From a virus, in the IMG/VR virus record IMGVR_UViG_3300028194_000509, positions 1-43,311 of that record: a stretch of DNA of 43,311 bases. One strand, 5' to 3'. This document shows, piece by piece, positions 598 to 27,323 of this stretch (its first letter is position 1; each line of letters starts with the position of its first letter). The translations under genes and the position numbers were made by a program. The notes under the pieces were generated by a model. The model did no database searches. It was not told the DNA's origin and saw nothing but the letters and a program-made list of their open reading frames with translations.

Positions 598-606
598 ATA
601 TTTATA
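598..606 (+). promoter_or_regulatory. Late-promoter-like motif ATATTTATA (copy 1)
   Basis: Exact copy of the nonamer found before most structural transcription units in this window. This copy is unusual because it abuts the terminator hairpin at 607-644, so a transcript starting a few bases downstream would begin inside the terminator stem. Confidence 0.45.
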
Positions 607-644
607 TACACCTATCAACAACAATGTGGTAGGTGTATTTTTTT
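607..644 (+). terminator. Rho-independent terminator upstream of the bS21 gene
   Basis: An 11-bp stem (arms 607-617 and 627-637, one G-T pair, 9-base loop) is followed at once by seven T residues. It would end transcription of the small structural gene to its left and separate it from the bS21 gene. Confidence 0.8.
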
Positions 645-664: not shown

Positions 665-931
665 ATGCAAGAAAACGAAAAGAAGTTTAAAAAACCCTAC
701 AAAAAAATTAGACGTGAAGATATGGAGATTCCAGGTTGTTATACTGGAGTAAGGGTAGTTAACGGAAATATCGAACTAGCCCTAAAGACATTTAAAAGAA
801 AAATGAAAGATAGTGGAAAGCTTGAAGAATTAAAAGACCGTAAGGAATTCCTTAAACCATCAGCTATCAAAAGAAAGAAAATGCAACAAGCGGTAAGAGC
901 CGAATGGCGAAGAAATCAGCTTGAAAATTAA
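665..931 (+). CDS. rpsU: Phage-encoded ribosomal protein bS21
   Basis: Encodes 88 residues: about 28 extra basic N-terminal residues, then a bS21-like body. Residues 31-88 align by eye with Bacteroidota bS21: a VNGNIELALKTFKRK helix, then FLKPSAIKRKKMQQA at 62-76, matching the host pattern FxKPSxxKRxxxQxA. bS21 sits on the 30S platform near the 3' end of 16S rRNA and takes part in initiation. In Flavobacteriia it helps hold the anti-Shine-Dalgarno; the Tyr implicated there (Tyr54 in my recollection of Flavobacterium bS21) aligns with Arg78 here. The ATG at 665 is preferred over an in-frame start at 626, which lies within the terminator. No Shine-Dalgarno is visible. The gene forms its own unit between a terminator and the scaffold promoter. 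The family call is confident; the effect on the ribosome is inferred. Confidence 0.85.
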   Translation: MQENEKKFKKPYKKIRREDMEIPGCYTGVRVVNGNIELALKTFKRKMKDSGKLEELKDRKEFLKPSAIKRKKMQQAVRAEWRRNQLEN

Positions 932-1085: not shown

Positions 1086-2129
1086 ATGGCAAATAGAAAA
1101 GATTTGTTATCTGAAGCTATCGCTGATGCAAAAGCCGTTAAAGAAACTGCTCTAGCAAATGCTAAGTTAGCTCTAGAAGAAGCGTTCACTCCAAAGTTAC
1201 AATCAATGATTTCTGCGAAATTAGCTGAAGAAGCTGATGAAGATGAAATGGAAGATGAAATGGAAGCGGATGCAGCAGTAGCTGTTGAAGATGAAATTGA
1301 ATCTGACGAAGAATCTAACGAAGAAGAAGTGGTGGTAGCTGAAGAGGAAGCTGAAGAAGAAGTACCTACTGAAGAAGAAGTAACCGAAGAAGATAAAGAA
1401 TCAACTGAAGAAACTTACGAATCAGAAGATGAAGTACCAGTAGAAGAAGAATCTGAAGAAGATTCAGAAGTATCTAATGAAGATATGGATGAAGATGATT
1501 TAGATTTAGAATCTGTAATCGCTGAATTAGAAGCTGAAATGGCTGATGATGATGTATCTGAAGAAGATAAAGAATCAACTGAAGAAACTTACGAATCAGA
1601 AGATGCTAATGAAGATGAAGATGCAGAAGCTGTTACTGAAGAAGAAGAAGAAGATGATATGGATGATGAAGAAGAAATCGATTTAGACGAAGTTATTAGA
1701 ACTTTGAAAGAAATGGAAGATGATTCAGAAAAAGTATCAGAAGAAGAATCTGAAGAAGAAGATAGTAAAAAAGATGATGAATTAGAAGAAGCATACCTTA
1801 CTATTGAAAGTTTACAAAAAACTATCAATGAAGTAAATCTGTTGAACGCTAAGTTACTTTTCACTAACAAACTATTCAGAACTTTTGATTTAAACGAAGG
1901 ACAAAAAGTAAAAGTACTTGAAAACTTCGATAGAACTTCATCAGTAAGAGAAGTGAAATTGGTATTCTCAACTTTAGCAGAAAATTTGAACGTTGCTAAA
2001 AAGAAAAGAACAGTTGTTAAAGAAGGTTATGCTTCTAAAGCAACAAAAAGTTCAGCACCAAAGAAAGAAATAATTTCTGAGGGCAATGAATTATCAGCTA
2101 GATGGAAAAAACTAGCAGGTTTAAAATAA
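1086..2129 (+). CDS. Prohead core scaffold protein, gp22-like
   Basis: Encodes 347 residues. The first 50 are an Ala/Lys/Glu-rich helix, residues about 51-235 are extremely acidic, and about 237-310 are a helical coiled-coil-like part. This architecture and the position directly before the major capsid gene fit the T4 gp22 family, which forms the core around which the prohead assembles and is then degraded by the prohead protease. The acidic part holds a perfect in-frame 46-base direct repeat (1386-1431 and 1560-1605). The C-terminus reads ISEGNELSARWKKLAGLK; it contains a possible protease site (ISE) and resembles a stretch near the capsid protein N-terminus. AAGGAG about 7 bases upstream fixes the start. 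Confidence 0.75.
   Translation: MANRKDLLSEAIADAKAVKETALANAKLALEEAFTPKLQSMISAKLAEEADEDEMEDEMEADAAVAVEDEIESDEESNEEEVVVAEEEAEEEVPTEEEVTEEDKESTEETYESEDEVPVEEESEEDSEVSNEDMDEDDLDLESVIAELEAEMADDDVSEEDKESTEETYESEDANEDEDAEAVTEEEEEDDMDDEEEIDLDEVIRTLKEMEDDSEKVSEEESEEEDSKKDDELEEAYLTIESLQKTINEVNLLNAKLLFTNKLFRTFDLNEGQKVKVLENFDRTSSVREVKLVFSTLAENLNVAKKKRTVVKEGYASKATKSSAPKKEIISEGNELSARWKKLAGLK
1386..1605 (+). repeat. 46-bp direct repeat within the scaffold gene
   Basis: Bases 1386-1431 recur exactly at 1560-1605, an offset of 174 bases (58 codons), so both copies read EEDKESTEETYESED. Identity at the DNA level suggests recent duplication or recombination within the acidic linker. Confidence 0.85.
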
Positions 2130-2157: not shown

Positions 2158-3783
2158 ATGGATTTAAAAAACATTTTAAATGAAGGTTCTTCTCACACCG
2201 CAAGACTATCTGAAGCAACAAGAGCTTTAGCTGGTAAGTGGGAAAAAACCGGTCTTTTAGAAGGAATCGCAAACGAAGTTGAAAAAGCTGGCGTTGCAAC
2301 ACTTTTAGAAAACCAAGCTAAGCAATTAGTAAAAGAAGCTTCTTCTACTGGAACTACAGCAAACTCAGAAGAGTGGGCAGGTGTAGCTTTACCATTAGTA
2401 AGAAGAATATTTAGTGAAATCGTAGCAAAAGATTTCGTATCAGTACAACCAATGAACTTACCATCAGGTCTAGTATTTTATCTAGATTTTAAATATGGTA
2501 CGGCTCAACCAGGTTTCGCAACTGGAACACCAAAAGAACAGACTGATTCTGTATTCGGTGTAACTGAAACTGAAAACGACCCATCAGGTGGTTTATATGG
2601 TGCAGGTAGATTTGGATACTCAATTAACGATTCTGATTCTGCAGAACAAACTTTAGGTGCGGTTGGTGCAAATCAATTCCAAACTGGTTCAGCAGTAGCT
2701 CCAGCAGTTTATAACTATGATACAGCGTTTTCAGCATCTCATGGTGATGCTTTAAAAGCAGCTGGTGCAGTATTTACAATGACTATTCCTACAGCATCTT
2801 TGACTGGATTTGATGAAAAAGGTATCAGAGGATTTAGAGTAGTTGGAACGGGTATTAGTGATAACTTCCCACAATTTACTAAGTTAAGTGGTGGTAATAT
2901 TGTATTTGTACTTAAAGGTGCAATCGTTGCAGCTAACAAAATGAAAGTACAGTATCAATCACAACCAGATGATATCTCAAGAGGTGATTTTGAGAATAAA
3001 GATTCTGATGCTACTGATTTAGGTATTCCAGAACTAAACGTAGAGATGAAATCTCTTCCTATAGTTGCTAAGACTAGAAAGTTGAAAGCACAATGGACTC
3101 CTGAATTCGCACAGGATTTAAACGCTTATCATTCAATTGATGCAGAAGCTGAATTAACTTCTATGTTATCAGAATACATTTCGCAAGAAATCGATTTTGA
3201 AATATTAGACATGTTAATGCAAGATGCTAAATCAACAGGATACTGGTCAGCTAAAGCTGGTAGAGTATGGAATGGTACTGCATTTGCAGCAATGGATAAC
3301 GCTGAATATGGCGCATCTGCTTACAATCAGGGAGCTTGGTTTCAAACTCTTGGTACTGTAATCGCTGGTGTATCTAACTCTATTCACCAAAAAACATTAA
3401 GAGGTGGAGCTAATTTCTTAGTTGTATCTCCAGATGTTGCTACAATAATTGAATCTATCCCAGGTTATGCTAGTTCAGCTGACAATGGTGATGCTCAATT
3501 TGCGTTTGGTGTATCAAAAGTTGGTTCATTAAATAGTAGATTCCAAGTATATAAGAATCCTTACATGAAAGAGAACGTAATATTAATGGGTTACAGAGGA
3601 ACACAATTCCTTGAAACTGGAGCGGTTTACGCACCATACATTCCGTTAATTATGACTCCTTTAGTATATGACCCTAAAAACTTCACTCCACGTAAAGGTG
3701 TTATGACACGTTACGCGAAGAAGATGTTAAGAGGTGAGTTCTATGGTAAAGTATATGTAGATTCATTAAACAGAATTCAGTAA
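2158..3783 (+). CDS. Major capsid protein, gp23-like
   Basis: Encodes 541 residues, near T4 gp23 (521). Hallmarks of the T4-type HK97-fold capsid protein are visible, notably PLVRRIFSEIVAKDF then VQPMNLPSGLVFYLDFKYGT at about residues 81-118. The end, with PLVYDPKNFTPRKGVMTRYAKKMLRGEFYGKVYV, is also typical. The N-terminal propeptide holds candidate (L/I)xE cleavage sites after Glu9, Glu19, Glu35 and Glu51; the T4 protein loses its first 65 residues this way. CGGAG lies about 8 bases before the ATG. It is co-transcribed with the scaffold and closed by a terminator at 3813-3840. Confidence 0.93.
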   Translation: MDLKNILNEGSSHTARLSEATRALAGKWEKTGLLEGIANEVEKAGVATLLENQAKQLVKEASSTGTTANSEEWAGVALPLVRRIFSEIVAKDFVSVQPMNLPSGLVFYLDFKYGTAQPGFATGTPKEQTDSVFGVTETENDPSGGLYGAGRFGYSINDSDSAEQTLGAVGANQFQTGSAVAPAVYNYDTAFSASHGDALKAAGAVFTMTIPTASLTGFDEKGIRGFRVVGTGISDNFPQFTKLSGGNIVFVLKGAIVAANKMKVQYQSQPDDISRGDFENKDSDATDLGIPELNVEMKSLPIVAKTRKLKAQWTPEFAQDLNAYHSIDAEAELTSMLSEYISQEIDFEILDMLMQDAKSTGYWSAKAGRVWNGTAFAAMDNAEYGASAYNQGAWFQTLGTVIAGVSNSIHQKTLRGGANFLVVSPDVATIIESIPGYASSADNGDAQFAFGVSKVGSLNSRFQVYKNPYMKENVILMGYRGTQFLETGAVYAPYIPLIMTPLVYDPKNFTPRKGVMTRYAKKMLRGEFYGKVYVDSLNRIQ

Positions 3784-3894: not shown

Positions 3895-4554
3895 ATGGCT
3901 GAAAACAAAGACAAAACTCCACCAAAAGGTAATGTGAGATTTTCGATATCTTTATCGGAAGAACAGAAAAGAGCAAAAGCTCAAATTTTAAATCATCCTT
4001 TCAATTTTGTGATAGGTAAAGCAGGTAGTGGTAAAACTCTATTAGCATGCCAAATAGGATTGGATATGTTTTTTAAAAGGAATGTAAATAAAATTGTAAT
4101 AACAAGACCAACGGTATCAAATGAGGATAATGGGTTCTTACCAGGTTCATTAGAAGAAAAAATGGAACCTTGGTTAGTTCCAATTAGAGCTAATATGAGA
4201 AAAGTTTATAACAAACCAAACGTATTACAGAAAATGGAAAGTGATGAATCAATAGAATTAGTATCTTTATCACATTTTAGAGGAAGAACTTTTGATAACT
4301 CCATAGTTATAGTAGATGAGTTTCAAAACTTAACTAAGCAACAACTATTAATGGTGTTGGGTAGGGTTGGAAAAGGTTCTACTATGATATTATGTGGTGA
4401 TAAACAACAATGTGATTTGAAATTTAATAATGATTCGGCAATACATGAAATTCCTAAATTAAAAGGTTCAAAATATGTGTATGATATAATGTTAAAAGAT
4501 AACCATAGACATGAATCTTTGGATGAAATTTTAACATTACTAACCGATTACTAA
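3895..4554 (+). CDS. phoH: PhoH-like P-loop ATPase
   Basis: Encodes 219 residues. The Walker A motif GKAGSGKT is at 41-48 and Walker B IVIVDEFQN has Asp141/Glu142. ITRPTV and a GDKQQCD motif are also typical of PhoH/RecD-like nucleotide hydrolases. PhoH-like genes are common in marine phages; proposed roles include RNA metabolism and the phosphate-starvation response, but the true phage function is not settled. AAAGGAAAG precedes the ATG. Lying alone between the capsid and fibre genes under a late-type motif, it is probably expressed late. Confidence 0.88.
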   Translation: MAENKDKTPPKGNVRFSISLSEEQKRAKAQILNHPFNFVIGKAGSGKTLLACQIGLDMFFKRNVNKIVITRPTVSNEDNGFLPGSLEEKMEPWLVPIRANMRKVYNKPNVLQKMESDESIELVSLSHFRGRTFDNSIVIVDEFQNLTKQQLLMVLGRVGKGSTMILCGDKQQCDLKFNNDSAIHEIPKLKGSKYVYDIMLKDNHRHESLDEILTLLTDY

Positions 4555-4562
4555 TAAATATT

Positions 4563-4571
4563 ATATTTATA
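4563..4571 (+). promoter_or_regulatory. Late-promoter-like motif before the first fibre gene
   Basis: Exact ATATTTATA, 31 bases before the GTG start at 4603. No terminator is visible after phoH, so read-through may add to expression. Confidence 0.6.
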
Positions 4572-4602
4572 GTTAAGTAACAAAAATAATTAAGGGAAAA
4601 GC

Positions 4603-5751
4603 GTGCCAGATTATACAGGTTCATTTAGTGGAAGTTTTGAAGGTAATGGTAGTAAGTTGACTAATATTGATTATTATTCACTTGGTAATATACCTGCGAC
4701 TATAACCCCATTTCAAAAAAATTCAATACTAGCTAACAATTCTGTTAGAGATAATTTTGTATCTAATGTTAAAACAAGATTAAATGCAGAAACTGTTATT
4801 AGTTCATCTGCTCAATTAACAACGGAATTTGATATTAGGTATGGTAATGAAACAGGTGATGATTTAGTAAGTGGTTCAGCACAGGTAATCAGTTTATTAC
4901 CTAGTGGAACGGTGAGTGGTTCAGCACAGATAATATCTAAGCTACCATCAGGAACAATAAGTGGTTCATCGCAAGTAAATTATGATGCTATATTAAACAA
5001 ACCAACTACAATCACAGTTAATCAGAAAAATGCCATCGTTGCAAACACTGCTAAAGTTGGATATACTGATTCCGCAGTTAAAAGTAAATTAAATACTGAA
5101 AATGTATTAAGTGGTTCTGCGCAAGTAAAGAGTTTACTACCATCAGGTGTTATTAGTGGTTCAGGTCAATTACCAACTGGCTTGGTGAGTGGTTCATCTC
5201 AAATAGATTATGATGCTATATTAAACAAACCAACTACAATCACAGTTAATCAGAAAAATGCTATTATTGCAAATACTGCTAAAGTTGGATATACAGCAGC
5301 AGCTCTTCCAACAGGTACTATATCATCATCAGCACAAATTACATCGCTGGGTTATTCAACAACAGATAGAACAGGTTCAGAACAAACATTAACATTGGCT
5401 GGAAACAATTTAAGTATATCAAATGGTAACACAGTTTCATTAGCAGGTTTAGGTGGTGGGGGTGCCGGTGGTACATCGATATGGAATACTGGTTCTCAAA
5501 GCCCAAGTTCATATACACATTTGATGACATCAAATAATTTAAAAGTAACTGGTAGTGTGGATATCAAAGGTGATTTCACTGTAAACGGACAATCCGTATT
5601 TACACAAACATCAGCATCTGATGCAGGAAACGCATTGGTTGTAAAGGGTAGATTAAAAGTTTTAGAAGAACAAATAGGAAGTTATATAGCATCAGCATCT
5701 ATTCAAGTAGGAAATACGCTAGATACTATAGATGGTGGTGGGTTTTTCTAA
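4603..5751 (+). CDS. Repeat-rich virion fibre/adhesin protein
   Basis: Encodes 382 residues from a GTG start with AAGGGA upstream. The composition is rich in Ser, Thr, Gly and Asn, with almost no Cys. The N-terminus (YTGSFSGSFEGNGSKLTNI) and the many SGSAQ / SGSSQ units at about 85-250 are typical of beta-structured phage fibre proteins. Two segments starting NYDAILNKPTTITVNQK recur 76 residues apart. The C-terminus ends in DGGGFF, close to the DGGNF end of the gene at 8318-9958. The likely role is part of a tail fibre or head decoration that contacts the host; the exact part is not identifiable. Confidence 0.7.
   Translation: MPDYTGSFSGSFEGNGSKLTNIDYYSLGNIPATITPFQKNSILANNSVRDNFVSNVKTRLNAETVISSSAQLTTEFDIRYGNETGDDLVSGSAQVISLLPSGTVSGSAQIISKLPSGTISGSSQVNYDAILNKPTTITVNQKNAIVANTAKVGYTDSAVKSKLNTENVLSGSAQVKSLLPSGVISGSGQLPTGLVSGSSQIDYDAILNKPTTITVNQKNAIIANTAKVGYTAAALPTGTISSSAQITSLGYSTTDRTGSEQTLTLAGNNLSISNGNTVSLAGLGGGGAGGTSIWNTGSQSPSSYTHLMTSNNLKVTGSVDIKGDFTVNGQSVFTQTSASDAGNALVVKGRLKVLEEQIGSYIASASIQVGNTLDTIDGGGFF
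4981..5261 (+). repeat. 53-bp direct repeat within the first fibre gene
   Basis: Bases 4981-5033 recur exactly at 5209-5261, an in-frame spacing of 228 bases. The flanks continue at high similarity, so the whole 76-codon block looks duplicated. Confidence 0.85.
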
Positions 5752-5759
5752 AATGGTTA

Positions 5760-5768
5760 ATATTTATA
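5760..5768 (+). promoter_or_regulatory. Late-promoter-like motif before a three-gene fibre unit
   Basis: Exact ATATTTATA, followed by AAAAGAATTA, a downstream context shared with the copy at 21323. It is 50 bases before the next start and probably serves the genes from 5819 to 10370. Confidence 0.6.
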
Positions 5769-5818
5769 AAAAGAATTAAGGTAATAGTACAACTATATAC
5801 AAGTAATGGGATAAAAAT

Positions 5819-8302
5819 ATGGCTCAAACAATAAAACATAGAAGAGGTTCGGTAGCATCCGTAAGGAACATCACCTCATTTGGAGAAGCAGAGATTGTAA
5901 TCGGTAGTGGTTCGGTTGATGGTAAGGTAGATGGACCGATAGTTTATATCGGTAAGCCGGGTGGTTCAACAGCGGCTAATGATTACGCACCTATATCAAA
6001 ATTATACACTGGAGCCGGACTTCCAGAGGTAAAACCTGCTAATTATGGTACTACATTAGATGGATTACCATACTATGATTCAACAAATAAAAAATTATAC
6101 ATTCTAAATGCACATTCTGATGGAACATCAGGTCACTCTGAAATAATTTTAACAAAAAATTCACTTCACAACTTTGCAACTGAAGTTTCAGCATCAGCTG
6201 TAGCTGCAGGGTTTGGTGGTGGTGGTATTTTTACACCAATAACAGCAGCATTAGAAAGAACTACAAAAAATATTCAAATAACAGGTTCATTAGAAGTTTC
6301 ATCAAAAATTGAAGCTTTAAACACAAATGTTGGAACACCAACATCAAATGATTGGGGAGCTAATTTAGATGGTTCATATTTTAATAACTTCACAAAAGAT
6401 ACAGATGTATCTGAAGTTTTAAGATTTGTTGCAGGATTATTATCCTCATCAGCAGCTAATCCAACAGCAAACTCAAAAACATTAGGTTCGGTATCCGAAA
6501 CTAAAACAAATACTGGAACTGTTTCAGCGATAGGTGGACATATTCCAACTGATAATATTAAAGATGATACAAACTACTTAATAAGTAAAGGATTCGCAAC
6601 AATTGGGGGAACACTCTTTCCAGGAAAAACAATTTATAATAATACTGGATATAATGTATCATATAATTCGGTAGCAGGTGGTTCTACATCAGTACAATCA
6701 TCAGCAGATGCACAATTATTTGGATTAGGTGGATTAAATAGTGGTAATGCTAGTGCATTTCAAGTAAAAGGAACTCATGCATTCAGATTCAACAATAATA
6801 ATACTGGAACTCAAACAGAAACATCAGCATCGACAGTAACATTAAGCAATTCATCATTCTCAACTTCAAATGGTGTAACAATAGCTAAAATTAACACTGT
6901 AAATCCTGCAGTTATACCTGCGGCATTTCAAGATGGTAAATTTGTTGGAGTTCATGGACAGAACATTATGGGATGGACAACTGAAGCAAACACATCAGTA
7001 TCAGCATCAGGAACTTATATATTAAATACAACAATTGGAATCAAAACTGGTTCTCAAGCATCATTTGTAGATAAAACAGCAAGTGAAGAAATATTTTGGG
7101 CACCAATGTCATCTATTCAAACAAACATTGGTAACCATACAGGTGGAGCTATAGGTTCTCAAGCAGTTGTACAACAAACAGCAACATCATCCTCATTATC
7201 AGGCGCACCTTATTTAAACGGTGGAACTTGGTTATTAACGGGAGTGATAAGTGAGTTGTTCGAACCATTATATGTAGCATCAACAACGGCAGTAGATGTA
7301 GCAATTGGTAGTACAAGTGGATATACAATTACAAAAACAGCTGGTAACGATACATTATCAACAAATGGTGGCACAGTTCAAACAGCAGGTATGGTAAAAG
7401 ATATTACTGGAAGTCCTGTTAGAAGTGTTGGAACTATTCCAACTTGGAATGATAAAGTACATATTAGTGCAACTTATTCAATTAGTGGTACTGGTAACAC
7501 AATAACTGAAAATGGATTTAGTGATACTTCATTTACATTAGGTATAAGAGCTAGAAACAACGAAGGTGTACAAAGTACATTAAATACTCAAACCCCAACA
7601 CTACATACAGCAGGTACATTCGGGCAAGCAGGTGCTAGAGGTTCAATGGGATACTTTGGTGGTGGAACTGCATCAACTACGTTAGTAGAAAGATTTACTA
7701 ATGAAACTTATAGAAGAATAATCAGTACATCAACTGCATTATCAAACGCCTGGAATAGTGCAACTGCATTATCTAATGGTGATGGAAAAGGTTTGCAAGT
7801 TAAGCCAGGGTACTTAGTTAATCATGAATCGGCAAATGGGTATTGGTATGATGATTCGGCATATAACGCAGGACATTACAAATGGTATGTAAGAGAATTT
7901 GATACAAACGCTACAAACAACAAAGGTACATTAACAATTGATATGAACCCAAACTCATCAGCTGATTTTGTAAACTTTGATAGTACAGTTGCTAATAAAA
8001 TAGCAGTAGGTGTTATGTTTGGTTCATCTGCATCAACTATATTCGATGCAGTTAAAGGTAATCAATCATATGGTGGTAGTTTGAACACAACGGCAAATGG
8101 GGCAATGAATCCATTTTCTGATAATGTAGCTATTAAAGGTGATTTCTCATCAATAACAAATTCAAACGGAACATTAACATTAGGTTTAAATAACGCAGGT
8201 GGACAAACAATTAACTCTTCAAATGATAAAATTTGGTTAGTTATTAGATATAAAGGAACACCATCACAAACATTGGAACAAATAACGGTTTCAGTATCGT
8301 AA
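5819..8302 (+). CDS. Large virion fibre/structural protein
   Basis: Encodes 827 residues, rich in Thr, Ser, Asn and Gly. The N-terminus IKHRRGSVASVRNITSFGEAEIVIG resembles the short N-terminal module of many phage fibre proteins (IKxRRSS...LxxGElavN), seen more clearly in the gene at 9978. No enzymatic motif is visible. An Ig-like or beta-sandwich fold is likely for much of the length, judging from alternating hydrophobic/Thr strands, but I cannot name one. The probable role is an adhesin or fibre subunit. The Shine-Dalgarno is weak (GGGAT). The next gene starts 15 bases after the stop. Confidence 0.65.
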   Translation: MAQTIKHRRGSVASVRNITSFGEAEIVIGSGSVDGKVDGPIVYIGKPGGSTAANDYAPISKLYTGAGLPEVKPANYGTTLDGLPYYDSTNKKLYILNAHSDGTSGHSEIILTKNSLHNFATEVSASAVAAGFGGGGIFTPITAALERTTKNIQITGSLEVSSKIEALNTNVGTPTSNDWGANLDGSYFNNFTKDTDVSEVLRFVAGLLSSSAANPTANSKTLGSVSETKTNTGTVSAIGGHIPTDNIKDDTNYLISKGFATIGGTLFPGKTIYNNTGYNVSYNSVAGGSTSVQSSADAQLFGLGGLNSGNASAFQVKGTHAFRFNNNNTGTQTETSASTVTLSNSSFSTSNGVTIAKINTVNPAVIPAAFQDGKFVGVHGQNIMGWTTEANTSVSASGTYILNTTIGIKTGSQASFVDKTASEEIFWAPMSSIQTNIGNHTGGAIGSQAVVQQTATSSSLSGAPYLNGGTWLLTGVISELFEPLYVASTTAVDVAIGSTSGYTITKTAGNDTLSTNGGTVQTAGMVKDITGSPVRSVGTIPTWNDKVHISATYSISGTGNTITENGFSDTSFTLGIRARNNEGVQSTLNTQTPTLHTAGTFGQAGARGSMGYFGGGTASTTLVERFTNETYRRIISTSTALSNAWNSATALSNGDGKGLQVKPGYLVNHESANGYWYDDSAYNAGHYKWYVREFDTNATNNKGTLTIDMNPNSSADFVNFDSTVANKIAVGVMFGSSASTIFDAVKGNQSYGGSLNTTANGAMNPFSDNVAIKGDFSSITNSNGTLTLGLNNAGGQTINSSNDKIWLVIRYKGTPSQTLEQITVSVS

Positions 8303-8317
8303 TAAAGAGGAATAAAA

Positions 8318-9958
8318 ATGGCATATAATTCAGATAATAGGTCGGAGAGATTATTACAAGGTAGAAGATTCACAACGGATAATCTATCTCTTGGACAAGA
8401 AGCATTTACAGATGTATTTGATTTGGGAGCAGGTGAAATATTAACAGATGATGGTCTTATTCCAACAGGTAGTGCACAATTAGCATATAGTGGTTCATCA
8501 CAAAATGGTGGAGTTGTATCTGGTAGTGTTGTTAATCCTTCTATAAATCCCAATGTATCCGTTGCAAAATACCACTATAGAAAGAAACTAAAACAAGCAG
8601 CTGATGGGCAAAGAGAAGTATATTACTTCACAACTTCAGACCCTTCATCTGTATCTGATACGGTAACTTCAGACCAATTAATTGAAACTGACCAACAAAC
8701 AAACTTTATATCACCAAAATATATAATTGCTAGTGATTCACCAAATAATACTGAGAGTTCAACTCCAGGTTATAAAGTTGTTGTATATAAAGATACATCA
8801 GCAACAGCTGCTGGGATTAGCGCATCACCTTCAGACCCTGCACATTATGTATTTGATTTTAAAACTGGTGTTTTAACTTGGGTTGGTAGTAATCAACCAG
8901 CATCAAATCAATTTGTTTACATAACGGCTTATCAATATATTGGTAGAACACTTCGTTCACAAATCGATGATGGTTCAATCGGTGGTGGTGGTAGTGATAT
9001 CACAATAAAAGACGAAGGTTCAGCATTATCAACGGCAGCTACAACACTTAACTTCGTAGGTAACGCAGTTACAGCTACTGGAACTGGTGCAACTAAAACA
9101 ATTACAATTAATACTGCTGGTAGTTCATTAGATATAGATTCCCAAACAGATGGGACAGGAATAACTGTAGAAGCTACTGATAAATTAATATTATCAGATG
9201 CTGGAACAGAGAAAAAGATTAATGTATCTCAATTATTTGATTCAGCAGATTTTGATACTGAAGTAGCGGCTAATTCAGCAGTAACTGCTAATACGGCTAA
9301 AGTTACTTATCCAACGGCTGATAAAAATAAAGTAGGTTTTATATCCGTAACTCAAGCAGTTGATTTAGATAGTATAGAAGCAGAAGCAACTAGAACATCA
9401 ATTTGGAATGTAGCAGCAGCAGGTGGAAAATATACTTTCTCAGGTCCTGGTTTGAGTGGAACAGAAAACAATCCAGCTATATACTTAATGAGAGGTGAAA
9501 AATACAGATTCGCAGTAAACGCATCAGGTCATCCTTTCCGTATTCAAACAACAACTGGAGCTTATGATTCAGGAAATCAATATACAGATGGATTAACTAA
9601 CTTAGGTACTCAAAGTGGTAATGTAGAATTCAATGTTCAATTCGATGCACCTGATACTTTATATTATGTTTGTCAATCTCATTCAAATATGGGTAATGTT
9701 ATTCACATCTTAAATAAAAAAGTAGATAATTTAGTTAGTGGTTCAGCACAAATAGTAGCTGGATTAGTAGGACAGAACTTAAACATTGGTGAATTAACAG
9801 CAACTAAGGTAGTTACAAATATAGTATCACAATCTATATCATTAGCAACAGGTTCTAATATATTTGGAGATGAGCAAACCGATGTACATGAAATAACAGG
9901 TTCACTAAATATAACGGGAAGTATTAATTTCGTTAGTTTAGATGGTGGTAACTTTTAA
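8318..9958 (+). CDS. Virion structural protein with a cupredoxin-like domain
   Basis: Encodes 546 residues. The first two thirds are fibre-like with Gly/Ser/Thr-rich strands. Residues about 365-470 form a plastocyanin-like domain: TFSGPGLSG, then a GHPF loop with His405, then LYYVCQSHSNMGNVIHIL with Cys452, His455 and Met458. These are the four ligand types of a type 1 copper site, and C-x2-H-x2-M matches the short loop of amicyanin. The tail has SGSAQ and ITGSLNITGS motifs and ends in DGGNF like the gene at 4603. Such domains recur in marine phage structural proteins; whether they bind copper is unproven. AGAGGAA precedes the ATG. Confidence 0.72.
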   Translation: MAYNSDNRSERLLQGRRFTTDNLSLGQEAFTDVFDLGAGEILTDDGLIPTGSAQLAYSGSSQNGGVVSGSVVNPSINPNVSVAKYHYRKKLKQAADGQREVYYFTTSDPSSVSDTVTSDQLIETDQQTNFISPKYIIASDSPNNTESSTPGYKVVVYKDTSATAAGISASPSDPAHYVFDFKTGVLTWVGSNQPASNQFVYITAYQYIGRTLRSQIDDGSIGGGGSDITIKDEGSALSTAATTLNFVGNAVTATGTGATKTITINTAGSSLDIDSQTDGTGITVEATDKLILSDAGTEKKINVSQLFDSADFDTEVAANSAVTANTAKVTYPTADKNKVGFISVTQAVDLDSIEAEATRTSIWNVAAAGGKYTFSGPGLSGTENNPAIYLMRGEKYRFAVNASGHPFRIQTTTGAYDSGNQYTDGLTNLGTQSGNVEFNVQFDAPDTLYYVCQSHSNMGNVIHILNKKVDNLVSGSAQIVAGLVGQNLNIGELTATKVVTNIVSQSISLATGSNIFGDEQTDVHEITGSLNITGSINFVSLDGGNF

Positions 9959-9977
9959 TCAATAATTAGGGTATAAA

Positions 9978-10370
9978 TTGGCTGCAAACGAAATAAAACT
10001 AAAAAGAAGTAGTGTTGAATCAAAAGTACCATCGGTATCAGATTTAACACTAGGTGAACTTGCTGTCAATACTTTTGATGGTAAGTTATTTTTTAAAAAA
10101 AATAATGGTTCTGATTCATTAGAATCTATAGTAACAACAAACGCACAAATAACAGGTTCAGTTGAATTAACTGGAGCAGTAACATCATCATTAACTTTAA
10201 TAAAAAACCAATCACCTTCTGAAAATGTATTTACAATTAGTGTGGGTGGGCAAGATAAAATAGTAGTTAATTCAGATGGTACGTTAATAGTTAAAGAAGT
10301 TTCAGCATTACCAACAGGAACAAAAGGAGCTCTATCAGTTAGTGGAAGCAACTTTTTCGTATATTTATAA
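9978..10370 (+). CDS. Small fibre-associated structural protein
   Basis: Encodes 130 residues from a TTG start with TAGGGT upstream. The N-terminal part, IKLKRSSVESKVPS then LTLGELAVNTFDGKLFFKK, is a clear example of the short module found at the head of many phage tail-fibre proteins, thought to act in virion attachment or folding. The rest is a brief beta-rich part (QITGSVELTGAVTSS) that ends without a large adhesin domain, so this may be a stand-alone adaptor. It is the last gene of its unit; the stop is followed by a new late motif at 10391. Confidence 0.7.
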   Translation: MAANEIKLKRSSVESKVPSVSDLTLGELAVNTFDGKLFFKKNNGSDSLESIVTTNAQITGSVELTGAVTSSLTLIKNQSPSENVFTISVGGQDKIVVNSDGTLIVKEVSALPTGTKGALSVSGSNFFVYL

Positions 10371-10390
10371 TAGTAATAATTTTAAAAACT

Positions 10391-10399
10391 ATATTTATT
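10391..10399 (+). promoter_or_regulatory. Late-promoter-like motif, variant ATATTTATT
   Basis: One mismatch at the last base from ATATTTATA, 43 bases before the ATG at 10443, at the boundary between two fibre units. Confidence 0.5.
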
Positions 10400-10442
10400 A
10401 TAGTAAAGGCATTTTAACAAACAAATAAAAAGAGGAAAAAAA

Positions 10443-11972
10443 ATGGCAGAATGGAAAAAAGTACTCGTATCAGGTTCGGCAGCCGATGTAACTTCATTGA
10501 AGTTAGCATCTGTTGTAAACGCTAGTACGGATACAGACAAATTTCTTGTTCTAGATAGTAGCGGAAACGTTGACTTCAGAACAGGTACAGAAGTAAGAGC
10601 TGATATTGGAGCCGGAGCCGGTTCAGGTGATATCGCAGCAGTTAATATTACTGCAGGTTCTGGTTTAGATGGTTCTGTGAACACATCAACAGGAACTCAC
10701 ACACAAACACTTAACTTAGATATTGATGGACTTACTGATGTAGGAACAGATTTAGCAGATGCAGGTTTATTAGCAGTAGATATTGATGGAACTGGGAAGA
10801 ATAGAAAAGCTTCTATGGTGAGAATGGCGAAGTATATGCAAGATAATCTTACATTTACAACGAACACAAACACTCAAAATAGTGCAGCAACTATTAGAAC
10901 TTTAATAGGTAGTGGTAACAACGGTCATGTACCAACAGCAGGTTCGGCAGGAGAATTCTTAAAACATGATGGTACATTTGGTACTCCTTCATATACTACA
11001 AATACTAACACACAATTAACAGCAGGACAAGTTAGAGCAAATATTTCTGGTACTGGATTGATTTCATATAATAATTCAACGGGTGTTATTAGTACGACAG
11101 CTAACAATTACGTTTTACCAGAAGCAACAGCAACTGCAAAAGGTGGTATCGAATTATTTAGTAACACAGACCAATCAGTAGCAGCTAACTCAGTATCAAG
11201 TACTGCTAGTAGAACTTATGGTTTACAATTAAACTCAGCTGGACAAGCGGTAGTTAACGTTCCGTGGACTAATACACAAACAGCAGTTAGAGGTATAAGA
11301 GTATCAGATGGTGAAACTACAAACTCATTAGCTTCAGGTGAAACACTAACCCTTACACAAGGAAGTAATATTACTCTTAGTGAAGATGGTGGTGCAGTAA
11401 CAATTGCAGGTACAGCAAATACACAATTATCAGCAGCACAAGTTAGAGCAAATCTTTCTGGTACTGGTTTGATTGGATATAATTCATCTACAGGTGTTAT
11501 TTCAACAACAGCAAATAACTACTCACTTTCAGCAGCTGATGTTAAGAGTGTTCTTGGTGGCGGGATGCCATCTAACGCATTAACAATTGGTGATTCTAAT
11601 GATACAATTACTATTGCTGGTAATTTAGATGTAAATGGTACAACTACTACTATTGATACAACTAACTTAGCAGTTGCAGATAAATTCATTGAATTAAACA
11701 GAGGCGCATCAACAAATGGAGATGGTGGTTTTGTAGTTAATGGTGCAGATAACAGAGCATTCGGTTGGGATGATTCCAACGATAGATGGGCATTTGATTT
11801 TAGTGGAGCAACCGCAGGACAAACTACAATTGCAGCTGATGCATTCGCTGCAGCAGTTATTGTAGGTTCAGGTACTGGTGTTGAAGAAGCAAGTTCTAAT
11901 TACGCTAAAAATGGTAACATATTTATCAATGAAGATGAAGGTGAAATATATATTTACGCTGTAAACAACTAA
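10443..11972 (+). CDS. Fibre protein sharing the WKKV-SGS N-terminus
   Basis: Encodes 509 residues. The N-terminus MAEWKKVLVSGSA is nearly the same as that of the 1636-residue fibre at 16066 (MPNWKKVITSGSD), so the two probably dock to the virion in the same way. Residues about 135-365 carry repeats of the type TNTQLTAGQVRANISGTGLISY that also occur in the large fibre. The C-terminal region (VNGTTTTIDTTNLAVADKFIELNRG) is a beta-rich module common in marine phage fibres. No S74 chaperone domain is present. AGAGGAA lies upstream, and the stop overlaps the next ATG (TAATG), indicating translational coupling. Confidence 0.7.
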   Translation: MAEWKKVLVSGSAADVTSLKLASVVNASTDTDKFLVLDSSGNVDFRTGTEVRADIGAGAGSGDIAAVNITAGSGLDGSVNTSTGTHTQTLNLDIDGLTDVGTDLADAGLLAVDIDGTGKNRKASMVRMAKYMQDNLTFTTNTNTQNSAATIRTLIGSGNNGHVPTAGSAGEFLKHDGTFGTPSYTTNTNTQLTAGQVRANISGTGLISYNNSTGVISTTANNYVLPEATATAKGGIELFSNTDQSVAANSVSSTASRTYGLQLNSAGQAVVNVPWTNTQTAVRGIRVSDGETTNSLASGETLTLTQGSNITLSEDGGAVTIAGTANTQLSAAQVRANLSGTGLIGYNSSTGVISTTANNYSLSAADVKSVLGGGMPSNALTIGDSNDTITIAGNLDVNGTTTTIDTTNLAVADKFIELNRGASTNGDGGFVVNGADNRAFGWDDSNDRWAFDFSGATAGQTTIAADAFAAAVIVGSGTGVEEASSNYAKNGNIFINEDEGEIYIYAVNN

Positions 11973-12184
11973 TGAAACTAAAAAAAGTTATAAAAAAAAT
12001 TATGGAAGATTTTAAAAGTTTAAGAAGTAAAGCTGAAAGTAAGAATACTAAAAAAATATCTCTATCTAAAACAGAATTAGAGTTCCTCTTAGAATTGATT
12101 GCCAAATCTAATTTTGAAGGAAGAGATGTTCAAATAGTTTACGAAACTGCAGTAAAACTTCAAACATTAATTCAATCGGATTAA
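11972..12184 (+). CDS. Small basic protein coupled to the fibre gene
   Basis: Encodes 70 residues, Lys-rich and predicted helical; the start ATG overlaps the upstream stop. The second half (SKTELEFLLELIAKSNFEGRD) looks like a short amphipathic helical domain. Function is not recognised. Coupling to a fibre gene suggests an assembly chaperone or accessory role, which is inference. It closes the unit and is followed by a strong terminator. Confidence 0.65.
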   Translation: MKLKKVIKKIMEDFKSLRSKAESKNTKKISLSKTELEFLLELIAKSNFEGRDVQIVYETAVKLQTLIQSD

Positions 12185-12194
12185 ATTAATAAAG

Positions 12195-12224
12195 ACCCCT
12201 TACAGAAATGTAGGGGGTTTTTTT
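12195..12224 (+). terminator. Strong terminator with GAAA tetraloop
   Basis: 10-bp stem ACCCCTTACA / TGTAGGGGGT (12195-12204 and 12209-12218, one T-G pair) closed by a GAAA tetraloop and running into seven T residues. Confidence 0.92.
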
Positions 12225-12244
12225 ATTTAATAATAAATTATTCT

Positions 12245-12253
12245 ATATTTATT
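12245..12253 (+). promoter_or_regulatory. Late-promoter-like motif, variant ATATTTATT, before the LamG genes
   Basis: Last-base variant of the nonamer, 32 bases before the ATG at 12286 and just after the terminator. It probably serves the four genes to 15934, among which no other motif or terminator is seen. Confidence 0.5.
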
Positions 12254-12285
12254 GATACAATCATTTAATAGATAAGATATACACT

Positions 12286-12984
12286 ATGGGAATATTCAGA
12301 GGGCCAAATATAGTAAGAGATGGGTTAACTGTTTTGTTAGATTCAAGAAGCAGTAGGTCATATCCTGGTACTGGAACTACTTGGTATGATTTAAGTGGTA
12401 ATGGTAATAATGGTACTTTAGTTAATTTCACAGGCCCATCTGCAGGAAGTACTAGTGGATTCGATACTACTACTAAATTAATGATGTATGATAGACACGT
12501 TGGAACTTCTGATAGTACAGCTAACAATTATGTAACTATTCCTAATAGTGATTCTTTAGATAAGTGTTTAATAACAAATGGAATGTCTATATCATTTTGG
12601 TTTAGACAAGATACATACCGATGTACTGCTATGACTAAATGGAGTTCTTCTTGGGAAGTTTATTATTGTTCATCCTTAGTATTTAGAACTCAAGGAACTG
12701 GGGGTAGTGATTTAAGCACAGGTGATACTGCACTTTCAGGATTCCATAACATATGTGTTACTTCTACATCAATGGGTAGAAAAGTTTATGTAAACGGTGT
12801 TGTACAGGCAACTGGAACTAATACAGTATCATCACAAAATACATCTGAACCTGTAAGTATTGGGGCATATTATAATGGTAATTATGCGATGGAAGGTTCG
12901 TTACCATATTATGCGTTATATAATAGAGCATTAACATCCGATGAAGTAAACCAAAATTACAATGTTCTAAAAGATGGATTTTAA
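12286..12984 (+). CDS. LamG/concanavalin-like lectin protein 1
   Basis: Encodes 232 residues. The N-terminus GPNIVRDGLTVLLD followed by WYDLSGNGNNGTLVNF is diagnostic of the Laminin_G_3-type phage lectins. NGMSISFWFRQ, KVYVNGVVQATG and the closing YYALYNRALTSDEVNQNYN also fit. These beta-sandwich domains usually bind carbohydrate, so a receptor-binding or decoration role is likely. No Shine-Dalgarno is visible, unlike most structural genes here. It is the smallest of three related proteins in this unit. Confidence 0.78.
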   Translation: MGIFRGPNIVRDGLTVLLDSRSSRSYPGTGTTWYDLSGNGNNGTLVNFTGPSAGSTSGFDTTTKLMMYDRHVGTSDSTANNYVTIPNSDSLDKCLITNGMSISFWFRQDTYRCTAMTKWSSSWEVYYCSSLVFRTQGTGGSDLSTGDTALSGFHNICVTSTSMGRKVYVNGVVQATGTNTVSSQNTSEPVSIGAYYNGNYAMEGSLPYYALYNRALTSDEVNQNYNVLKDGF

Positions 12985-13001
12985 TTATAAAAGGGAAAAT
13001 T

Positions 13002-13331
13002 ATGTTTGAAAACAGAAGATGGTTAGTAATACCAACAAATTTAACAGAATCTATCAACTTTAATCAAGTACATCAACCATCAATTGATAAATTGAGAGTA
13101 TCTAATGATGGAACACTAACATTTGTAAAATACGAAGTAAATGTAGTAACTTCTTCCTTTGATACCACATATCTTAATCCAGAAACAGATAAAGATGAAA
13201 CATATACTACTGCAGCCGGTGTATATGGTAGACCTGATATCTATAGTTCAGATTATACAGAATATAATCATACAGAGATACGAAATGTACTCACAGGAAG
13301 TAATTGGATATCTGAAGTAGAAGGAGAATAA
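13002..13331 (+). CDS. Unknown protein between lectin genes
   Basis: Encodes 109 residues starting MFENRRWLVIPTNLTES, with AAGGGA upstream. It is rich in Thr, Asn, Asp and Tyr, has no Cys and no membrane segment, and is probably beta-rich. I do not recognise a family. Its location between two lectin genes, 17 bases after one and 1 base before the next, suggests a structural partner or chaperone of these adhesins. Confidence 0.65.
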   Translation: MFENRRWLVIPTNLTESINFNQVHQPSIDKLRVSNDGTLTFVKYEVNVVTSSFDTTYLNPETDKDETYTTAAGVYGRPDIYSSDYTEYNHTEIRNVLTGSNWISEVEGE

Positions 13332-13332
13332 T

Positions 13333-14547
13333 ATGGGAACATTCGGAGGACCAAACATATCATTAGATGGAATGGTATTCGGGTATGATACTGGATATCC
13401 TATGGTAAATAATGATAATTCATATAGATTTAATAAAGGCCAAACCACAGAAAACTTAATATACGATATGAGTGGTACTGTTACATCATCATATCCTGAA
13501 GTTGTATATAGATGTACTGCCAACGAAACAAATGTAGTAGATACATCAGTACCTGGTGGAAAATACTCTCGATTTACTGGAATAGATGGTAGTTCTAATA
13601 ACCAACTTTACAGTCGATTTAGTTCTTACTCGATAGATGTTAGAGGGGATTCGGTTAATTATAGTGTTTATTTAAAAGGTTCTGGAACTTGCCATCTTAC
13701 TATTTATGATAACCAAAGTGGGTATGGTACATCCAGTACTATTACATTAACTGAGGAATGGGTTAGGTATAATTATACAAGAACTGTAAACGCTTCAGCT
13801 ACATCATATTGGGTAGCGGTTAGAGGGGTACTTAATACTACAGATGTATATGTAGCAGGTCAACAAGCTATGAGGGGTACACATTCAACACCATATGTTG
13901 AAGATAATCGTTCATCAACACAATCTCTGATAGATTTAAAAGAAACAACAGAAATCGATTTAACTAATGTATCGTTTGATAGTAATGCTCAACTAACATT
14001 TGATGGAACTGATGATTATATTGATATAGGAAGTGATGATGTGTTAGATGTAGGTAGTATGACACAAGAAGTTATATACCAACCATTAGGTATTAATAGA
14101 AGAAACCCAATTATAGCAGACAATAACCCCACAGGAAGTGATTACGCACATGCGATGTGGTTAGAACATTATAATGACAATAAACTAATATTAATATTTG
14201 GTGATGGGTCTACACATGGAGATGTATCAAGTACAGCAACGATTACAGATACTACAAAGTACCACCATATAGTTTGTGTACGAGATGCTGGAGCAAAAAC
14301 AGTAGAGTACTTTATTAACGGAGTTAGTGATGGAGTAAAAGATTGGGCTAATAAAGCAAGTATAGGTAATCCAGTTGTATATGATGGCAGCACTAATCCT
14401 CTTAGCTACGACCACTACATAGGTGGTCATGGCAGTTTCAGTAAAAGCTATGCAAATATACCAGTAGTCAAAATATACAACCGTACACTATCAACAACTG
14501 AAATAGCACTAAACTTCAACGCATACAAAAAAAGATTCGGATTATAA
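13333..14547 (+). CDS. LamG/concanavalin-like lectin protein 2
   Basis: Encodes 404 residues with a strong Shine-Dalgarno (AAGGAGA). The N-terminus GPNISLDGMVFGYDTGYP is shared with its neighbours. Residues about 60-185 look like a first beta-sandwich, perhaps carbohydrate-binding. Residues about 210-400 are a LamG domain (LTFDGTDDYIDIGSDDVLD, MWLEHYNDNKLILIF, VEYFINGVSDG) that ends VKIYNRTLSTTEIALNFNAYKKRFGL. The extra middle domain compared with the first lectin suggests a different ligand. Probably a receptor-binding or decorating protein. Confidence 0.75.
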   Translation: MGTFGGPNISLDGMVFGYDTGYPMVNNDNSYRFNKGQTTENLIYDMSGTVTSSYPEVVYRCTANETNVVDTSVPGGKYSRFTGIDGSSNNQLYSRFSSYSIDVRGDSVNYSVYLKGSGTCHLTIYDNQSGYGTSSTITLTEEWVRYNYTRTVNASATSYWVAVRGVLNTTDVYVAGQQAMRGTHSTPYVEDNRSSTQSLIDLKETTEIDLTNVSFDSNAQLTFDGTDDYIDIGSDDVLDVGSMTQEVIYQPLGINRRNPIIADNNPTGSDYAHAMWLEHYNDNKLILIFGDGSTHGDVSSTATITDTTKYHHIVCVRDAGAKTVEYFINGVSDGVKDWANKASIGNPVVYDGSTNPLSYDHYIGGHGSFSKSYANIPVVKIYNRTLSTTEIALNFNAYKKRFGL

Positions 14548-14548
14548 T

Positions 14549-15934
14549 ATGAAAACAGGACCAAATATAGTAACAACTGGATTGGTATTCGGATATGATA
14601 CAGGTGAATTTCCATCTGGTAGTTTAGCTTTTGAAACTTTCAAACCATTTAGTGGTAATAATAGATTCTATAAAGGAAGAAGTGCTAGAAATTATATTGC
14701 AAATCAAAACGCAGTTAGAAAATTTCCATTAGAAGCTGCTAATTACTCATCGGAAGGTACGTTTGCAGAAAAACACCCCAATGATATAAAAGCATATGAT
14801 ATAAACGGAAATAGATTACAAACTTATGTTAACACAGGCGTTACTGATTATACAAATACTTATCACGCACATTGGCAACATGACCCAATTTTGAATAAAC
14901 CAGTCGTAGTAATGGAAGATTTGGTATCAGGCCAATGGAAAGCTAAAAGTTTTGGAACTGGTTTACCATCTTGGAACACATTAGGATTAACACATGGAAG
15001 TAAGTACACAATTTCTTGGTTACAATGGGTAGATAATCTTAGTAAACACGCAAAGGCAGGTTTATATAGGAGAAGAGCTTCTGATAATTCAAATAACTTT
15101 TGGGATGGGCAGGCGAGTAGTGCAACTTCATACAATACTAAACTAAGGACATGGCAGAGAGTTTATCATACATTTACTACAAATAGTGTTGTTGATTTGG
15201 ATAGTACTTATTTATCAATATATATGTACGGACATTATAGCCCAAGAGCTACAGTTAAAATTGCAGATGTTCAAATTGATTTGCATGACCACCCAACAGC
15301 ATACCAAGAATATAATGGTTCAACAACTGAAAGAAGTAGTACTGATGGGTTGGTAGATGTAAAAGGTAATACTACTATCAATACATCCACAGTTTCTTTT
15401 GATTCTAATGGGTTTCCAACATTCGATGGTACTGATGATTATTTAACAATAACAGGTTCTACAGGTATTACTTCAGATACTAAAACAATTGAAATTGCAT
15501 TTAAAATGAATGGTTCGTATTCTAACTTTTCACCATTGGCAGTTTATGCAAATGGTTCATCTTCTACTAATAGAATTTGGTTAGGATTACAAAATAATAA
15601 ATTTAGAATGCATGGTTGGGGAACTGATGACCCAGATGGTACAACAACAATTTCAGCTGATGAGTGGTATATTTGTACTTTTAGTTACAACAAATCAACT
15701 CAAGCTATGAAAATATACACCAATGGGGTTTTAGAATCATCTACCACAAATTCTCAAGGTGGAGTTACAGCCGCATCTAATATGAATTGGTCCATAGGTA
15801 CAGTTCCAGGTGGATGGCAAAGTGTAACATATAGTAATGTGGATGTTTCTATATTTAAAATATATAATAGAATACTATCGGATTCAGAGGTAAAACAAAA
15901 CTTTAATGCATATAGAAAAAGATTCGGAATATAA
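14549..15934 (+). CDS. LamG/concanavalin-like lectin protein 3
   Basis: Encodes 461 residues. The N-terminus GPNIVTTGLVFGYDTGEFPSG matches the preceding gene. The middle (about 90-250) is a distinct beta-rich domain with many aromatic residues. The LamG domain at about 285-460 holds FPTFDGTDDYLTITGS, TIEIAFKMNG and MKIYTNGVLESS and ends FKIYNRILSDSEVKQNFNAYRKRFGI. The conserved N- and C-termini with differing middles show that these genes arose by duplication. No clear Shine-Dalgarno precedes the ATG, which lies 1 base after the upstream stop, so coupling is likely. Confidence 0.75.
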   Translation: MKTGPNIVTTGLVFGYDTGEFPSGSLAFETFKPFSGNNRFYKGRSARNYIANQNAVRKFPLEAANYSSEGTFAEKHPNDIKAYDINGNRLQTYVNTGVTDYTNTYHAHWQHDPILNKPVVVMEDLVSGQWKAKSFGTGLPSWNTLGLTHGSKYTISWLQWVDNLSKHAKAGLYRRRASDNSNNFWDGQASSATSYNTKLRTWQRVYHTFTTNSVVDLDSTYLSIYMYGHYSPRATVKIADVQIDLHDHPTAYQEYNGSTTERSSTDGLVDVKGNTTINTSTVSFDSNGFPTFDGTDDYLTITGSTGITSDTKTIEIAFKMNGSYSNFSPLAVYANGSSSTNRIWLGLQNNKFRMHGWGTDDPDGTTTISADEWYICTFSYNKSTQAMKIYTNGVLESSTTNSQGGVTAASNMNWSIGTVPGGWQSVTYSNVDVSIFKIYNRILSDSEVKQNFNAYRKRFGI

Positions 15935-15970
15935 TTCCCATCAATTTTTTATTTAATAAAAATTAATTAC

Positions 15971-15979
15971 ATATTTATA
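15971..15979 (+). promoter_or_regulatory. Late-promoter-like motif before the largest fibre gene
   Basis: Exact ATATTTATA, 86 bases before the ATG at 16066. The intervening leader is unusually structured and richer in G+C than its surroundings. Confidence 0.6.
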
Positions 15980-15983
15980 ACTA

Positions 15984-16034
15984 AATATCCGTAAGATATT
16001 GGCCCGAAGGGGAAGTGGGCTTGCATTTTGTAAG
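15984..16034 (+). promoter_or_regulatory. Structured 5' leader RNA of the large fibre gene
   Basis: Three possible hairpins stand in a row: AATATC / GATATT (15984-15989, 15995-16000), GCCC / GGGC (16002-16005, 16017-16020) and CTTGCA / TGTAAG (16020-16025, 16029-16034, one G-T pair). The second and third share base 16020, so they may compete or stack. The GGCCCGAAGGGGAAGTGGGC core stands out in this AT-rich sequence. I do not recognise it as a known riboswitch. Confidence 0.4.
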
Positions 16035-16065
16035 TTACCAACCATAACTAAAAGGAAAAGAAATT

Positions 16066-20976: not shown

Positions 20977-21233
20977 TGGCAGTTCCAGCATCAGGAATGT
21001 TATCCTTAATAAGTATAAGGAAAGAGTTTGGGGTAAATAATTACAACGGATATATCGGTAGTATATCTAATGTTGGTTTAACTTCATTGAGTACTGGTGG
21101 ATTTGGTACTATTAACGCAGTAAACGCATCTTCTAATAGACCTAACCAATCGGCACCACATCATATGACTGAGTTTTATTCATATGACCACGATGCTGCA
21201 AATGAAGAAGAAGAAAAAGAAAAGGGAAGATAA
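20976..21233 (+). CDS. Small tail/fibre-associated structural protein
   Basis: Encodes 85 residues; its ATG overlaps the fibre stop (TAATG), with AAAGGGAAA upstream. The pattern PASGMLSLISIRKEFGVNN near the start and a later SAPHHMTEFYSYD matches a widespread family of short phage structural proteins (PxSGxISLxxIRxEFG...FYgY) found next to tail fibres. Their role is unproven; they may be adaptors or decoration. The last ten residues are Glu/Lys-rich and look unstructured. Confidence 0.7.
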   Translation: MAVPASGMLSLISIRKEFGVNNYNGYIGSISNVGLTSLSTGGFGTINAVNASSNRPNQSAPHHMTEFYSYDHDAANEEEEKEKGR

Positions 21234-21322
21234 CTTCCTCAAAACCAATGAGTTATGATAGTGATAGTGAAAAGCACTGAGTATCAATGAGTTACAGAGT
21301 ATAGTGATTCTTTTAGATTCTC

Positions 21323-21331
21323 ATATTTATA
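21323..21331 (+). promoter_or_regulatory. Late-promoter-like motif before the neck genes
   Basis: Exact ATATTTATA followed by TAAAAGAATTAGGAG, so the motif merges into the Shine-Dalgarno (TAGGAGA); only 22 bases separate it from the ATG at 21354, giving a very short leader. Confidence 0.6.
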
Positions 21332-21353
21332 TAAAAGAATTAGGAGATTATAA

Positions 21354-22514: not shown

Positions 22515-22517
22515 CAA

Positions 22518-23045: not shown

Positions 23046-23046
23046 T

Positions 23047-23853: not shown

Positions 23854-23872
23854 TCTTTAGAAAAATATTATC

Positions 23873-23881
23873 ATATTTATA
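23873..23881 (+). promoter_or_regulatory. Late-promoter-like motif
   Basis: Exact ATATTTATA 43 bases before the ATG at 23925. No terminator hairpin separates it from the gp15-like gene. Confidence 0.55.
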
Positions 23882-23924
23882 TACACATAAAGTATAACAA
23901 ACAAATTAAAAAAAACATTAAGTT

Positions 23925-24224: not shown

Positions 24225-24250
24225 ATATAATCGTTTTGAGTTTTTTGATG

Positions 24251-24258
24251 TATTTATA
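24251..24258 (+). promoter_or_regulatory. Late-promoter-like motif before the tail sheath gene
   Basis: TATTTATA preceded by G rather than A, followed by TATATAATAAAAACC. It lies 39 bases before the sheath ATG, which has the strong Shine-Dalgarno TAGGAGA. Confidence 0.55.
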
Positions 24259-24297
24259 TATATAATAAAAACCAAAAGAAATTAATAGGAGAATCAA

Positions 24298-26697: not shown

Positions 26698-26714
26698 TAT
26701 ATAAATAATGGTTC

Positions 26715-26752: not shown

Positions 26753-26762
26753 GAAATAAACT

Positions 26763-26771: not shown

Positions 26772-26801
26772 TTAAAGAATTAGAAACAGAGGAAAACAAA
26801 A

Positions 26802-27290: not shown

Positions 27291-27323
27291 TTATCAAATT
27301 ATACTAAGTATTACAAATTTAGA

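Follow-up and report, generated by a model that had tools for sequence, protein, structure and literature searches.

A phage-encoded bS21 and Shine-Dalgarno sequences on late genes have been gained and lost together in a lineage of T4-like phages

Introduction

What use could a phage make of its own ribosomal protein bS21, encoded just ahead of its capsid gene, and why should its late genes carry Shine-Dalgarno (SD) sequences if its host belongs to a group whose ribosomes do not expose the anti-Shine-Dalgarno (ASD)? In the ribosomes of Bacteroidia, the ASD is hidden by bS21, bS18 and bS6 (PMC9976891), and in Flavobacterium johnsoniae the loss of bS21 or its Y54A substitution favours the translation of strong-SD mRNAs and reporters (McNutt et al. 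2023, PMC9976891). An earlier note on the locus studied here had proposed that the phage protein carries arginine where the host has this tyrosine, and that the phage may swap bS21 to free the ASD and direct ribosomes to its late mRNAs. It had also been proposed before that bS21 from phages is built into ribosomes and gives phage mRNAs an advantage (PMC9723584, PMC9976891).

The locus and its bS21 gene

The window, i.e., the whole stretch of DNA that was analysed, is a 43.3 kb viral contig and a fragment of a T4-like myovirus, with a gp23-like capsid, a contractile sheath and tube, and a baseplate recognised by PHROG matches. Between 1086 and about 37856 lie the genes for the capsid, PhoH, baseplate, tail fibre, sheath and tube; a short segment of early type begins at 38060. 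Genes were called as the longest ATG open reading frames, with one rule across all genomes and controls. The features referred to below are as follows (energies in kcal/mol).

599..606, + strand: putative late-promoter element TATTTATA in front of bS21, an enriched upstream motif
607..637, + strand: conserved hairpin followed by a U run in the bS21 leader (-14.8 kcal/mol, z=-3.75)
665..931, + strand: phage bS21, 88 aa (PF01165, E=5.5e-12; aligned to 7jil_z), with an N-terminal extension and an SD-less start
1086..2129, + strand: late gene that follows bS21, as it also does in relatives with bS21 (synteny; SD AAGGAG, energy -10.7, spacing 7)
2158..3783, + strand: major capsid protein, gp23-like (phrog_138, 3e-74; SD CGGAG, energy -7.7)
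3895..37856, + strand: late block of PhoH-like, baseplate, tail fibre, head-tail adaptor, tail sheath and tail tube genes (PHROGs), with an SD on most
38060..42312, + strand: early-type genes 38060, 38398, 38816 and 40072, SD-less (energies -2.2 to -5.6)
38782..38812, + strand: Bacteroidota-type promoter TTG-N20-TATATTTA before 38816, by sequence match and the spacer-20 peak of the family

The match of the window protein to PF01165 scores 45.6 bits against a cut-off of 27 and covers positions 2-53 of the 55 in the profile. The stretch FLKPSAIKRKKMQQA fits the Bacteroidota signature FxKPSxxKRxxxQxA that the earlier note had read in it, and the placing of Arg78 opposite Tyr54 holds as well, since the HMMER alignment to F. 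johnsoniae bS21 (7jil_z) is ungapped and the tyrosine is replaced. This register at site 54 is fixed without gaps by relatives that keep the tyrosine and have a similar tail (KNAKYSEWMRRQT vs QQAVRAEWRRNQL, L026-L029). A shifted register, which would bring Trp81 of the stretch AVRAEW to site 54, was rejected because the Tyr54 relatives carry both Tyr54 and the same tryptophan. The window protein is therefore without the Tyr at site 54 that is a feature of ASD-occluding Bacteroidia bS21, and Arg is found at this site in 25 of the 29 bS21 family members. It also has Met47 at site 23, where the host has Phe, and MKDSG in place of the Phe23-x-Lys-Thr-Gly turn present in both Bacteroidota-type bS21 structures. 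Phe23 is among the positions that Chen et al. (PMC9723584) found to differ between phage and bacterial bS21, and it may be a defining residue of the ASD-occluding Bacteroidia class. An AlphaFold model predicts a C-terminal helix (65-87) bearing Arg78, but its pTM is just 0.42 and we read no contacts from it. A search of bacterial genomes with a bS21 profile, made to find the host, matched only two distant Spirochaetota bS21 genes.

The bS21 start itself is SD-less in the window (upstream energy -2.4), as the earlier note had stated, and so it is in 29/29 family members (an SD in 0/29) and in 101/101 members of group B. The element TATTTATA ahead of it occurs 61 times in 125 regions upstream of family genes against about 6 expected, with a peak 20-40 nt before the starts. 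Directly after it, and ahead of bS21, lies the hairpin UACACCUAUC...GGUAGGUGUA with its U run, which is found once per contig and solely before bS21 in 7/7 contigs (the window and G001-G006). Its stem is kept in 13 relatives, with an apparent compensatory change in one (L031), and it may be a terminator, an attenuator or an autoregulatory leader element. An SD-less start behind a late-type promoter would suit a protein needed ahead of the proposed switch. As a side observation, NATATTTATA is strongly enriched 20-40 nt before late-gene starts in groups A and B (in the window, e.g., 21354, 24298 and 26802); it is probably the late promoter, and is unlike that of T4, TATAAATA.

Shine-Dalgarno sequences mark late genes and not early ones

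SD strength was taken from the strongest uninterrupted helix that the upstream sequence can form with the 3' tail of 16S rRNA, by a simple nearest-neighbour sum in which some G-U terms are approximate, and an SD was called at a threshold of -7 kcal/mol with a spacing of 3-11; dinucleotide shuffles of the upstream region served as the control and yield about 20% SD. The individual genes cited in the earlier note behave as it described: its five examples (1086, 13333, 21354, 24298 and 26802) reach -9.5 to -12.0 at spacings of 6-8, and its five exceptions (12286, 14549, 23925, 27438 and 35311) lie between -3.0 and -5.6. Of the late genes in the window, 22/28 carry an SD and 6/28 do not, vs an SD in 0/4 early genes (Fisher p=0.006).

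The same division is seen in family A, which comprises the window and six long relatives (G001-G006, 36-169 kb). In the six relatives, 91/127 structural genes have an SD vs 143/467 other genes (p=1.4e-16), more than chance would give. SD use comes in blocks: structural blocks mostly have 60-80% and long stretches elsewhere about 13% (e.g., in G004), and the 71% reached by structural genes is the level of T4. Under the same treatment, T4 itself has an SD on 77% of its late and 62% of its early/middle genes; the split is therefore not general to T4-like phages. In Arg54 contigs, first genes behind TTTG/TTG-N19-21-TAnnTTT have an SD in 3/42 cases, which is background, vs 46/75 behind TATTTATA (p=4e-9), and over whole operons the counts are 123/214 for late genes vs 24/127 behind Bacteroidota promoters. 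SD status is kept between orthologues at 20-60% protein identity, where upstream identity is near 0.5.

Promoters point to Bacteroidota hosts

Host-like promoters had been noted before 38060, 38398 and 38816. The last of these, a DNA polymerase family gene (phrog_17, 1e-11), does have an exact TTG-N20-TATATTTA, whereas the sequences before 38398 and 38060 match it nearly but not exactly. The start codon of this gene (38816-40075) lies just 3 nt past the -7 box, so its mRNA may be nearly leaderless.

Across the family, whose Tyr54 contig G006 has too few early genes to bear on the point, the spacing between TTG and TAnnTTT peaks sharply at 20 (38 vs a background of 2.5; P about 4e-31). The peak recurs in isolated Bacteroidota phages, in the Flavobacterium phage immuto described below, in G008 and in phage Mel-JY01, and is absent from T4 and G019; classical sigma-70 promoters showed no enrichment. 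A spacer of 20 points indirectly to Bacteroidota RNA polymerase, and hence to Bacteroidota hosts for the window family.

Two relatives deserve separate mention. G008 has, at 96-109 kb (L216-L217), repeated early promoters GCTTGACACGC-N-TAnnTTTA before consecutive small SD-less genes. Mel-JY01 (L342/L343, PP395634), which belongs to the capsid lineage and encodes a Lys54 bS21, has Microcystis elabens as its host on record and carries Bacteroidota-type promoters (spacer 20, 8 vs a background of 0.13); the recorded host may be wrong, or the true host may be a co-cultured Bacteroidota.

Shine-Dalgarno use follows bS21 across relatives

Searching by capsid yielded 80 loci that belong to the same capsid lineage, plus isolates, and bS21-less loci were counted where the sequence spans the place in which bS21 would lie. 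Mean SD use is 0.61 in 51 loci with bS21 vs 0.10 in 14 loci without it (p=2.6e-8), an association of which part could reflect host differences, since the hosts of several relatives are unassigned. The value of 0.10 is the shuffle level. No bS21 was found elsewhere in the records of these 14 loci, most of which are fragments, that of immuto being complete.

Parsimony on the capsid tree counts five changes in the presence of bS21, of which well-supported branches force three, and SD use shifts with bS21 each time; all branches of the lineage without bS21 are SD-poor. Pooled sister contrasts between bS21-less and bS21-bearing branches gave an SD in 1/54 vs 30/58 genes (p=4e-10), and others, in which hosts are not matched, gave 17/75 vs 37/57 (p=1e-6) and 5/51 vs 9/22 (p=0.004). 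There have thus been at least three joint gains or losses of bS21 and late-gene SDs.

The isolate Flavobacterium phage vB_FspM_immuto_2-6A (MW353175, complete genome) shares with the window the T4-like lineage, the gene order and a capsid 56% identical, but it has no bS21 and its late genes are SD-less (SD 1/46, 2%). SD use is at or near background also in isolated Bacteroidota phages without bS21, and in group C phages, which have a short, host-like bS21.

Which part of bS21 matters, and alternative explanations

A lone change from Tyr to Arg at site 54 might free the ASD and so create SD use. Tyr54 stacks on A1534, and Y54A gives a threefold output of an rpsU reporter (PMC9976891); Arg predominates in the family, and SD-using Staphylococcus aureus carries it too. 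As the determinant, however, Arg is neither necessary nor sufficient. Tyr54 family members and related Phe/Tyr54 phages are SD-rich, with paired orthologues of Tyr54 and Arg54 family members at mean energies of -7.06 vs -7.30 (p=0.52), and L300 (IMGVR 3300009537_000008), a bS21-bearing member of the capsid lineage with Arg54 and a host-like Phe23, is SD-poor. Among 142 distinct bS21 contigs, SD-rich and SD-poor phages cannot be told apart by whether site 54 is aromatic (p=0.10). The Arg54 explanation is therefore largely refuted as a sole cause and we consider it quite improbable; given the effect of Y54A in F. johnsoniae (PMC9976891), Arg54 may still contribute, but is at most a contributor. 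The bS21 tree gives Arg54 a single origin with the Tyr54 group beside it; the capsid tree nests the Tyr54 contig L261 within the Arg54 family, at odds with it on the direction of change. Phe23 does separate the same 142 contigs, being present in 0/131 SD-rich vs 9/11 SD-poor ones, although lineage and the N-terminal extension are confounders here, which makes it a lead and not a cause. What sets SD-rich bS21 phages apart from SD-poor ones is the phage-type protein, with its N-terminal extension and no Phe23. L300 offers a natural test case.

It could also be that bS21-bearing phages simply infect SD-using hosts, the protein being incidental. Most of the metagenomic contigs are without an assigned host, Mel-JY01 is on record from Microcystis, and G019, with a different bS21, has uniform SD use. 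We nevertheless think this unlikely, as Bacteroidota-type promoters occur in the family, immuto, isolated Bacteroidota phages, G008 and Mel-JY01 alike, and the early genes of the family are SD-poor, unlike those of T4. An improbable alternative is that the phage removes host bS21, that the bare ribosomes read SDs, and that phage bS21 restores only an essential N-terminal role. Depletion or C-terminal truncation of bS21 does raise SD translation in F. johnsoniae, and a phage protease has been suggested (PMC9976891), but the predicted phage bS21 retains a long C-terminal helix. Least credible, and in our view very improbable, is that the late module descends from a phage whose host did use SDs, its own SDs being relics: the module is T4-like and SD use is common to sister group B, yet SD status persists between orthologues whose upstream regions have diverged, and the bS21-less branches are all SD-poor.

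Proposed mechanism

Our favoured reading, which we consider fairly probable, is that the phage-type bS21 as a whole would yield SD-reading ribosomes that favour the SD-marked late genes. It starts from the observed split between late and early genes, the promoter types that go with it, their conservation, and the coupling to bS21 gain and loss. Host ribosomes of Bacteroidota would keep the ASD hidden; the early genes, with host-type promoters and SD-less starts, would be translatable by these unmodified ribosomes, and so would the first copies of bS21, made from a late-type leader with a likewise SD-less start. Phage bS21 would then displace host bS21, or occupy ribosomes without it; as it would leave the 16S tail unheld by the host pocket, the ASD would be free and the SD-marked late structural genes favoured. 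The determinant would be the entire phage-type protein, with its N-terminal extension and helix-1 changes that include the loss of Phe23. The fuller claim, that swapping one protein turns SD-blind ribosomes into SD-reading ones mid-infection and so opens a private late translation channel, bS21 and late SDs having been gained and lost together repeatedly, we place just on the probable side.

Relation to known systems and significance

Autoregulation of bS21 in F. johnsoniae likewise has the state of bS21 set whether Bacteroidia ribosomes read SDs, but it concerns one host gene, rpsU, with an extended SD (PMC9976891), whereas here the protein is of the phage, dozens of late genes carry ordinary SDs and the bS21 start is SD-less. 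None of these late SDs is at or below -13 kcal/mol by stacking sum, and since bS21-depleted F. johnsoniae ribosomes required an extended SD (PMC9976891), this counts against the proposed mechanism, as do the six SD-less late genes of the window and the SD-poor L300, host-like though its bS21 is. The freshwater Bacteroidetes phages of Chen et al. 2022 (PMC9723584) also have bS21 near the capsid gene, and there the terminase gene too, with entry into host ribosomes and favouring of late phage mRNAs proposed; all their bS21 proteins are aromatic at site 54, and the bS21 genes run against the direction of the structural genes. The window differs in its Arg54, its late SDs and a bS21 on the same strand (as in all A and B contigs), and we found no SD analysis in the text of Chen et al. 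2022. Mizuno et al. 2019 (PMC6375957) give bS21 as the commonest virus-encoded ribosomal protein, and a Pelagibacter phage bS21 enters E. coli ribosomes (Mizuno et al. 2019, as cited in PMC9976891).

In an open-access library of papers we found no earlier report of SD use in Bacteroidota phages or of a coupling between bS21 and SDs; new here are the late SDs, the SD-less early genes, and SD use that tracks phage-type bS21. We know of no tie between the viral bS21 proteins in the Mizuno survey and SD usage or hosts blind to the SD. If the mechanism is true, it would give, for one lineage, a concrete and testable answer to why bS21 outnumbers other ribosomal proteins in phages: beyond adding a ribosomal protein, the phage would alter the start signal to which ribosomes respond. 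Nature would then have produced a specialised ribosome of viral making, and with it a natural experiment on ASD hiding in Bacteroidota.
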